This document shows, in pieces, positions 17,481-34,599 of a stretch of 64,000 nt of DNA. The stretch's first letter is position 1; each line of letters opens with the position of its first letter. The position numbers and the translations under genes were made by a program. This DNA is from Cyanodermella asteris (taxonomy: Eukaryota; Ascomycota; Lecanoromycetes; Ostropales; Stictidaceae): positions 420,790 through 484,789 of the forward strand of contig UYJD01000001.1 in NCBI GenBank assembly GCA_900618795.1, given 5' to 3'. The notes beneath the pieces are model-generated. The model made no database searches and was not told where the DNA came from. It worked only from the letters and a program-made list of their open reading frames with translations.

Positions 17481-19354
<1,874 letters not shown>

Positions 19355-25254: not shown

Positions 25255-25566
25255 TCTAAGATTAGCGATAGAAGACAGTGTCGAGGGACCGAGACAAGGA
25301 TTAAGGCGAAGTAGGACTGAAGGAAGTTCGGTCTTGAAACAGCGCTGTCGGATGCTCAAAAAAAGTAGAAAGAGCAATCGTTAGGCACGTCAAGACTTAA
25401 AATTAAACTCCATCATATTCACCCACGGTCATTGAAATGGAGCATTAGGCAGGGTCTCTATAGTCAGCCAAGCCAAGATCGAAACATTTCATGTGTCGGG
25501 CGCTGAAGAACCCCCTTTTTTTTTTGTGAAAAGTATATAAGTTTTTGTTAAGAATGTTTCTGGCAT
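25255..25566. other. Intergenic upstream of the tRNA gene
   Basis: No coding sequence. It contains an A/T-rich stretch with a TATATAA element about 30 bp ahead of the tRNA gene. Confidence 0.4.
25534..25540 (+). promoter_or_regulatory. TATA-like element upstream of tRNA-Val
   Basis: TATATAA lies 26-32 bp before the tRNA 5' end, where TFIIIB-contacting TATA-like boxes occur in some fungal tRNA genes. It could matter here because the internal A box of this tRNA is interrupted. Confidence 0.4.
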
Positions 25567-25705
25567 GGTCGGATGGTGTAGTGTACGTACTGGAACGCAT
25601 CTTCTAATGGTACTCGAACTAACCCAATCGCAGTGGTTATCACATCTCGTTAACAGTGTTAACAATGTTCCGAGAAGGTCCTGGGATCGAGCCCCAGTCT
25701 GATCA
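25567..25705 (+). tRNA. tRNA-Val: tRNA-Val(AAC) with an anticodon-loop intron and a second intron in the D-loop
   Basis: The acceptor strands GGTCGGA (25567-25573) and TCTGATC (25698-25704) pair over 7 bp with two G-T pairs, with discriminator A at 25705. The anticodon stem is TCTCG (25645-25649) with CGAGA (25671-25675). The loop TTAACA...C puts AAC at 34-36 and holds a 14-nt intron (25656-25669) after position 37. The T arm is CTGGG / ATCGAGC / CCCAG, with a normal B box (GGATCGAGCCC). The D arm is interrupted: removing 25583-25633 (51 nt) leaves GTGTAGTTGGTTATCAC, the expected Val D arm. The removed piece starts GTACGT, has an ACTAACC branch-type site and ends CGCAG, so it looks like a spliceosomal intron. 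A mature tRNA of 74 nt before CCA addition results. Whether it is functional or a disrupted copy is open. Confidence 0.85.
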
Positions 25706-25710
25706 GCCTA

Positions 25711-25717
25711 TTTTTTT
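25711..25717 (+). terminator. Pol III terminator, T7
   Basis: A run of seven T begins six bases after the discriminator base, a normal RNA polymerase III stop for the tRNA gene. Confidence 0.75.
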
Positions 25718-32631: not shown

Positions 32632-34599
32632 TCATGCGCCTCCCATTGCGATTTTCTTCCCCTTCACCGACTTCCATTCAACGAGAAAGCTACCCAGGAA
32701 TGCCAGTCCGCCGGCGGCAATAGACAGTATGAAAGCATGTGTGATAGCAAAGTCGTAAGCCTCCAGCACCGGACTCAGAAACTGCTCAGGGGTGACTAGC
32801 CTCACACCCGTGGCCCCTGCTCCGAGCACCGCCCCAAGCAACTCCATCGGGATGTTCGGAATCATTGCCAACTGCTTGTAGAGCTCATTGGAGAAGATAT
32901 TTTGGGCGATGGAAACCGAGAGAGCACCTCCTAATGAGTTGAAGAATATCACAAGCGCATTACCGGTCGGCATGTCTTTCGCGTTCAGCACCACCTGTGG
33001 GATGATGAAAGGCACCTGGATGCAGATTCCGGCGCCCACACCTGTTAGGATCTGGTAGCCAATCCAGCGCGCCGTGCTAGTATCGGTCTTGAGGGTGTAC
33101 AACAGCCCGGCGCCAATTACGTAGATAGCGCTACCAATCCACAAGAACGGGGCATACCAACCGACAAGCGTGACCATACCGCCGGTAAAAATTGAGCCGA
33201 ATGTCATGCTGACCAGCAAGGGGATCGTACGAATTCCGGAGCCCTCAGCAGTCGTCCCGAGGACTGCCTGGAAGTAGAATGGAAGGTAGAAGATGTGAGC
33301 GTACAAAGCCAACAAAAGCAAAGCCATGAAGAAAGATGTCGCAGCCATCGACCTGTTGCTGATGATACGAAGCGGTATCGTAGCCTGTTCACCCCGCCAG
33401 AACTGTACGCCAATGAAAACGCTGATGATCAATCCGAACCCGAGCAAGTTGCCCCAGACGCGGGAATCTTTCCACGGGTAAGTTGTTCCACCCCACTGCA
33501 AGGCGAGCAGGAGGCACACAATGGCACACATCAGGAACAAGGCTCCAAGCAGATCCATCTCCCGGATCTTTTGTTTGAACGTCATGTCAGTGTGCTTTCT
33601 CGGCGGATTCTTGAAGAAGAAAAAGACGACGGCAAACGCAGCACCTCCGAGTGGCAAATTGATCCAGAAGCACCATCTCCAGGTCACGCGATCGGTGAAA
33701 ACACCTCCGAGGATTGGACCCACTACAGACGCGATGCCGAACATGGAGCTGACGGCGCCGATGTAGATGGCTCGTTTCCTAAGGGGGACAGAATAGCCGA
33801 CAATTGTCAAACCACCGGAAAAGAGACCAGCAGCACCAGCCCCGGCCAGTGCTCGGCCTACAATCAGCATTGGTGAATTCTGCGCCGCGGCGCAAAGGAC
33901 CGAGCCGACCTCGAATATGAAAAGTGCCGTGAGATAGGTCCATTTCACGCTGAAATAAGTAAAGATCTTGCCGAAAGTAGGTTGGAGCGCGGTCTGGGTA
34001 AGTAGGTACGAGGATCCATACCAGCCGACATCGCCAAGTGAGTTGAAGACGTGCGTTATCGTCGGTATAGCTGTTGCAATGATGGTGTTGTCGAGGGCTA
34101 GGATTGTCAGCGATATCGTCAGGGAGGAATGTCTGCTCGGCATGGAGATTGTATGTGCATCATTGTCGAGAGCTCATGACCGTGGAAAGCGAGGAGACTT
34201 ACCAATCACGAAGGTAGTCAGGCAAAGACCGAAGGTCAAGACGATAATCGGCAGCCCGGTTGGATACTTGCTCTCGTCCTCAACCTCTTCGTCTTCCTCT
34301 GCGGCATTGTCTCCAGCGACTTCACTCGCAGCACTCGCACCCTTCGAGATGACTGCAGCTGCAGTAGACTTCTCATCGATAGGATCACTCAATGTCGGGT
34401 CCAGGGCAGCTGTCGTTGGCAGCGACTTCTCGACGACAGACTGCCTAGTCTCTTTCTGGTCGGTACCTGTCGAACCCTCGGTGGATTGTTTCTGATCGAG
34501 GCTCGGACCGCGCTCATGCGCATCATGCTTGTCTGCATGGGGGTCGATCGTGTTCAATGCCGCCAAAGCGGAGGATTTAGAGGAGTCTTGATCCGCCAT
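32632..34599 (-). CDS. MFS drug/toxin efflux transporter, DHA2 (14-TM) type
   Basis: A 620-aa plasma-membrane proton antiporter. Exons (minus) are 34599-34203 and 34097-32632; the 105-nt intron has a GTAAGT donor and a CTGAC branch site. A polar, charged N-terminus of about 110 residues leads to the first helix, whose end joins across the splice as FVIALDNTIIATAIP, the LDxTIVNVALP-like antiporter motif D1. GSSYLLTQTALQPTFGK and GRALAGAGAAGLFSGG follow, then motif C-like VGPILGGVFTDRVTWRWCFWINLP. About 14 hydrophobic segments fit the DHA2 family of fungal multidrug and mycotoxin pumps. No secondary-metabolite synthase is adjacent, so a general detoxification role is as likely as a toxin-cluster role. 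Confidence 0.9.

Follow-up and report, generated by a model that had tools for sequence, protein, structure and literature searches.

Probable spliceosome-type introns in nuclear tRNA genes of Cyanodermella asteris

The textbook view treats tRNA splicing and mRNA splicing as two separate systems. Among small structured RNAs, frequent interruption by introns is described as known for U3 and U6 alone (PMC5832005), and the title of a work cited in that article speaks of introns inserted several times into fungal U6. The fungal U6 snRNA introns resemble those reported here in being mRNA-type introns in a small structured Pol III RNA and differ in their host, which is U6 there and a tRNA here. Spliceosomal introns are also reported from the rRNA genes of ascomycetes, lichen fungi among them, and yeast can excise such introns from Pol I rRNA (PMC8527467). 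Here too the introns appear to be spliceosomal, lie outside mRNA and belong to an ascomycete, but the rRNA introns reside in Pol I transcripts with rRNA as host, whereas the present ones reside in Pol III tRNA genes. Within tRNA genes, non-canonical introns have been described in red algae, nucleomorphs and archaea (PMC4090602; PMC3978253). The bulge-helix-bulge (BHB) introns of Cyanidioschyzon merolae, archaea and nucleomorphs likewise occupy the D-arm or other arms, with several per tRNA (PMC4090602); the introns presented here differ in having no strict BHB and in possessing GT-AG ends and a branch motif. From the canonical introns at position 37/38, of which the gene under study has one as well (25656-25669), they differ in position, in signals and presumably in the enzyme that removes them.

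In a stretch of 64,000 nucleotides from C. asteris (the window), a tRNA-Val(AAC) gene is interrupted by a 51-nt piece that is most probably (about 0.9) a U2-type, mRNA-like spliceosomal intron in a nuclear Pol III tRNA gene; the genome has no fewer than ten of this kind. Four lines of evidence support this reading: the intron anatomy, the cloverleaf that appears on excision, the conservation of exons and intron position in a diverged paralogue, and the recurrence in eight other tRNA genes. The class is real and, as far as could be searched, undescribed. We found no description of spliceosomal introns in tRNA genes in the open-access literature, which was the scope of the search and left subscription papers and preprints mostly outside.

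A tRNA-Val(AAC) gene with an ordinary and a probable spliceosome-type intron

The gene and its surroundings comprise the following features, given with their identity to L002, a second Val(AAC) gene of the genome.

25534-25540, + strand: upstream element TATATAA, 33 nt 5′ of exon 1
25567-25705, + strand: tRNA-Val(AAC) gene (L001), from the sequence
25567-25582, + strand: exon 1, with the 5′ acceptor strand, the 5′ strand of the D-stem and the first 9 nt of the A box; identical in L002
25583-25633, + strand: putative D-loop intron of spliceosome type, 51 nt, GTACGT...ACTAACC...CGCAG
25619-25623, + strand: candidate branch motif CTAAC of this intron, its A at 25622, 11 nt upstream of the intron's 3′ end
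25634-25655, + strand: exon 2, with the remaining D-loop and D-stem, the 5′ strand of the anticodon stem, AAC and position 37; identical in L002
25656-25669, + strand: ordinary tRNA intron at 37/38, 14 nt; in L002 21 nt at the same site
25670-25705, + strand: exon 3, with the 3′ strand of the anticodon stem, the variable loop, the T-arm, the 3′ acceptor strand and A73; identical in L002
25684-25694, + strand: B box GGATCGAGCCC in the T-arm of exon 3, from the sequence
25711-25717, + strand: T7 run, Pol III terminator, from the sequence

An earlier note on this DNA had described a 51-nt piece in the D-loop and a 14-nt intron after position 37, an anatomy that proved correct to the base. The D-loop piece has GTACGT as its 5′ splice site and CAG at its 3′ end. 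At the native locus, neither ARAGORN, run without and with introns allowed, nor Rfam reported a tRNA. Excision of the 51 nt in silico led ARAGORN to call tRNA-Val(AAC) with a 14-nt intron. The cloverleaf fit of the locus amounted to 47 after penalty (threshold 43). When any interval was allowed, 16 excisions tied for the top score, the GT-AG excision among them. Thus, the borders of the intron are not fixed by the fit alone; they are fixed by the splice signals and by L002. A single low-threshold Rfam match to DGCR5 at this locus was taken as chance.

L002 (contig C12, minus strand) contains a 53-nt insertion (GTCAGT...GCTAAC...CCAG) at the same site as the window gene. The exons of the two genes are identical at 74 of 74 bases. 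Between their D-loop insertions 30 of 56 aligned columns match (z 1.9 versus shuffles), and between their 37/38 introns 12 of 21 (z 3.1); the flanks, taken over 100 nt, align no better than shuffled sequence (z 0.5 and 0.7). Identical exons around a diverged insertion indicate either intron-like evolution of the insertion next to exons that behave as those of a working tRNA, or gene conversion that equalises the exons. The note had weighed an mRNA-type intron against a disrupted copy and had proposed to look for the insertion in other tRNA-Val copies. Its presence in L002, together with eight further tRNA genes carrying such introns, favours the former option, and the identical exons with a diverged insertion in the same place speak against the latter.

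L069 (C5), which ARAGORN names Thr, is probably a third Val(AAC) gene, and it is intact. The note took uninterrupted D-loops in every other Val(AAC) gene as part of the case for a dead copy; L002 is interrupted, but L069, the probable third gene, is not. The conclusion that every Val(AAC) gene is interrupted, drawn from a search in which the joined exons matched only C15 and C12 and from a pattern allowing 3 mismatches that gave no uninterrupted copy, was dropped once the wider survey gave L069. With this probable intact gene, the two interrupted Val copies, including the one in the window, need not be essential.

Ten interrupted tRNA genes in one genome

The survey covered the 28.5-Mb assembly (25 contigs) of this species, the only fungal genome searched. 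tRNA loci were gathered via Rfam RF00005 and B-box/terminator patterns and then fetched in short stretches. RF00005 gave 60 matches, of which 14 fall on C1, a small contig densely packed with tRNAs that we take to be mitochondrial. Outside C1, all matches to four patterns were inspected (96/96, 39/39, 40/40 and 38/38), as were 5 of 32 and 12 of 28 matches to two further patterns; for another pattern, 100 of 160 matches were listed. The genome DNA searches yield lower bounds, as they missed L069 and L044. The initial set held 126 loci, and the cloverleaf threshold of 43 was attained by 72 of them. A further 100 B-box-like places contributed one locus at 43 or above (L206, Ile(TAT)), without GT-AG removal, and L056 and L060, recognised as tRNAs by ARAGORN alone, bring the total to 75.

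Extra GT-AG introns of 46-55 nt were found in 10 of these 75 loci, where a cloverleaf forms only, or forms better, once the piece is removed. They sit off position 37/38:

L065, Ala(AGC): after exon base 3
L085, Pro(CGG): after exon base 4
L104, Glu(CTC): after exon base 5
L066, Gln(CTG): after exon base 6
L001 and L002, Val(AAC): after exon base 16, in the D-loop
L091, Ala(CGC): after exon base 18
L081, Asp(GTC): after exon base 24
L072 and L096, Asn(GTT): after exon base 31

After excision, all ten genes additionally have a 37/38 intron of 11-41 nt. Before excision, ARAGORN reported nothing in five of them, a wrong tRNA in four and, in L065, Ala(AGC) minus its exon 1. Afterwards it called the expected tRNA in nine, L104 still being misread and reaching a cloverleaf by our custom fit only. 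Since both programs, ARAGORN and Rfam, overlooked or miscalled the interrupted genes, more cases may hide in fungal genomes. In the survey as a whole, 37/38 introns were fitted in 53 of 72 loci (52 listed as such, and L072 counted as Asn), the longest measuring 61 nt in the Phe(GAA) gene L124.

Both Asn(GTT) loci found, L072 and L096, are interrupted. Neither an intact Asn(GTT) gene nor any further Asn anticodon turned up among the 75 loci of the lower-bound searches, and the 96 nuclear GGTTCRANNCC-type matches, all inspected, held no Asn beyond this pair. The joined Asn exons match solely L096 and L072, each as two pieces. The 100 additional pattern matches, which gave no new Asn, strengthen the claim that, provided nothing is missing from the assembly or the searches, all Asn tRNAs would need splicing at the base-31 site. 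The exons of the pair are identical at 73/73 bases, the introns match at 47 of 55 and the flanks are related (z 5.7 and 6.3). Thus, L072 and L096 are not independent and descend from one interrupted gene. L072 was assigned to Asn because it resembles L096 and because ARAGORN calls Asn once the intron is excised; the fitting program chose a 66-nt excision, which scores 55 versus 54, yet yields a senseless anticodon and conflicts with L096. For Pro(CGG) and Ala(CGC), too, no intact gene was present among the 75 loci of these lower-bound searches. An Ala(TGC) gene was not found in this genome by the B-box-based survey, which such a gene could escape because a T-arm intron would hide it.

These data bear on the view that the interrupted genes are dead copies, wrecked by unrelated insertions while translation uses intact ones. 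Five of the eight affected isoacceptors indeed have intact genes, namely Val(AAC) with the probable case L069, Asp (L014), Gln(CTG) (L040), Glu(CTC) (L054 and L100) and Ala(AGC) (L044), and where D- or T-arm insertions affect one of several eukaryotic copies, such genes are supposed in PMC4090602 to be pseudogenes. We nevertheless regard decay as very unlikely here: the Val exons have stayed identical next to a diverged insertion and diverged flanks, the Asn exons have done so next to insertions that differ within still related flanks, and all ten loci retain pairing arms and a T-run, TTTT beginning 0-20 nt past the tRNA 3′ end. Moreover, splice signals and length are common to all insertions, and Asn(GTT), Pro(CGG) and Ala(CGC) would be left with no intact gene found in the lower-bound searches.

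The Ala(AGC) gene L065 minus its extra intron is identical to the intron-less L044 at 108 of 110 positions. The upstream flanks of the two give a better alignment when taken from exon 1 (z 3.6) than when taken from exon 2 (z −1.1). The intron of L065 would be either a recent gain in L065 or a loss from L044. An origin from introner elements was rejected, as no near-identical copies were seen elsewhere in the genome: nine introns searched jointly, with a result that is a lower bound, matched themselves and the Asn paralogue only. Two cyanophage-like viral contigs from a pattern scan for relatives were discarded because their match, made up of upstream sequence plus a phage tRNA, is due to chance.

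Splice signals and the nature of the introns

In all ten extra introns the A of a CTRAY motif lies 10-12 nt upstream of the 3′ end; among GT..AG intervals of 46-55 nt that occur by chance in the same loci, 58 of 3470 show this. The 5′ site GTRNGT is exact in six of the ten (3.4% of chance intervals) and one base off in L002, L072, L081 and L091. The introns of L066 and L104 end in AAG. When excision was unrestricted, GT-AG was among the best solutions in 8 of 9 loci (L072 excluded) and the unique best in L066, L081, L085 and L104; in L091 it lay 3 points under the best. Decoys, which kept the real T-arm and 3′ acceptor strand behind a shuffled upstream part and were permitted GT-AG removal, passed the threshold of 43 in none of 360 cases, the best scoring 37.5. 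GT-AG removal improved the score of only the two Asn loci among the 64 that already fitted at 44 or higher when left uninterrupted.

The note had likened the D-loop piece to protein-gene introns of the window, a likeness that we checked against four introns of two genes:

17620-17672, + strand: intron of the UDP-galactopyranose mutase gene, 53 nt, by greedy excision versus P0242; CTTAC, no CTRAY near the 3′ end
17754-17805, + strand: intron of the same gene, 52 nt, GTATGT...GCTAAT...CAG
18157-18211, + strand: intron of the same gene, 55 nt, GTGAGC...GCTAAT...CAG
34098-34202, − strand: intron of an MFS transporter gene, 105 nt, by greedy excision versus P0121; GTAAGT...GCTGAC...TAG

Visual inspection placed CTRAY in three of the four, its A 9-12 nt upstream of the 3′ end, and the sizes in this small sample (53, 52, 55 and 105 nt) compare with 46-55 nt for the extra tRNA introns. 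An ab initio count of GTRNGT..CTRAY..YAG patterns in the window was left unused: the 50-54 nt class held 6 versus 1.1 in shuffled sequence, but reversing the sequence still gave 4, and the total was 26 versus 38 after reversal. Best protein matches reach 79-80% for UDP-galactopyranose mutase, 69% for an MFS transporter (Exophiala) and 52% for Uso1 (Xylographa), and they indicate a filamentous ascomycete that has no close relative in the database searched.

On another view, the tRNA splicing endonuclease would cut the extra introns, which would then belong to the non-canonical type of Cyanidioschyzon, archaea and nucleomorphs. Introns in the D-, anticodon- and T-arms are on record elsewhere (PMC4090602; PMC3978253), and 37/38 introns are frequent in this genome (53/72 loci by fit). 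A strict bulge-helix-bulge (3-nt bulge, 4-bp helix, 3-nt bulge at the junctions), however, was formed by none of the ten extra introns, the set to which the test was applied; they showed 0-2 of 4 central pairs. GT-AG ends and CTRAY at a fixed spacing are unexpected for introns of that kind, and the acceptor-stem positions would lie beyond the ruler of the eukaryotic enzyme. Cleavage of the extra introns by the endonuclease is thus highly improbable.

Transcription and order of processing

TATA occurs at −52..−28 in 7 of the 10 interrupted loci, and TATAW in the same interval in 33 of 67 other tRNA loci, consistent with the role that the note had ascribed to the upstream TATATAA. In the two Asn genes L072 and L096, TATA is present only at −60, and L081 has none within 80 nt upstream. 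The four acceptor-stem cases are informative, as all of them have TATAW 39-49 nt before exon 1 and none at −52..−28 of exon 2. This placement points to a transcription start that precedes exon 1. Since the intron of the Val gene splits its A box, TFIIIC may bind weakly there, and the TATA element may bear more of the load. Spliceosomes as a rule process Pol II transcripts (PMC8527467), but that the loci lie within longer Pol II transcripts, the tRNA being a by-product or irrelevant, is hardly credible given T-runs that start 0-20 nt after the tRNA in 10/10 loci and TATA at −52..−28 in 7/10.

Under the spliceosomal reading, which we prefer, Pol III would start upstream, mostly near the TATA element, and stop at the T-run. 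The GT and CTRAY signals would be recognised by U1 and the branch-site machinery, and the spliceosome would remove the intron as a lariat, after which the interrupted stem or loop could fold. The 37/38 intron would then be cut by the ordinary tRNA endonuclease and the ends sealed by ligase, so that each such pre-tRNA would undergo two unrelated splicing reactions in turn. While anatomy and conservation can be read directly from the sequences, we infer the enzyme and the order of steps from them. Recruitment of U1 should be weakened on uncapped Pol III transcripts, which counts against the spliceosomal reading.

It is likely from the sequences that the spliceosome is an essential tRNA-processing machine in this fungus: the transcripts of 10 of 75 nuclear loci, among them both Asn(GTT) genes and the sole Pro(CGG) and Ala(CGC) genes found, would have to be spliced from Pol III transcripts before the endonuclease acts, by way of introns that come and go. 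If the spliceosome must act on Pol III pre-tRNAs, the recognition of uncapped, very short exons becomes testable. It would likewise become testable whether the type of gene matters to intron gain and in which order the two splicing machines work on a single RNA.

Several other loci were recorded in the course of the survey. L102 (C17:256685 region, minus strand) is an intron-less, tRNA-like locus with a GAT (Ile) anticodon, which is unusual in a eukaryotic nucleus. L073, L086 and L089 are related tRNA-like genes with 44, 44 and 26 extra nucleotides in the anticodon loop and anticodons tentatively read as AAT, AAT and AAA. L090 (C12:1655969 region) is tRNA-like, with anticodon-like and T arms and a poorly pairing acceptor stem, and represents a pseudogene or another interrupted gene. 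L088 (C12), L092 (C13), L103 (C18) and L126 (C13), perhaps joined by L076 and L097, form a repeat family with a GGTTC B-box-like motif, a T-run and the common stretch CCCAAAGATCAAAAAATCC, and this family looks like a Pol III-driven SINE.
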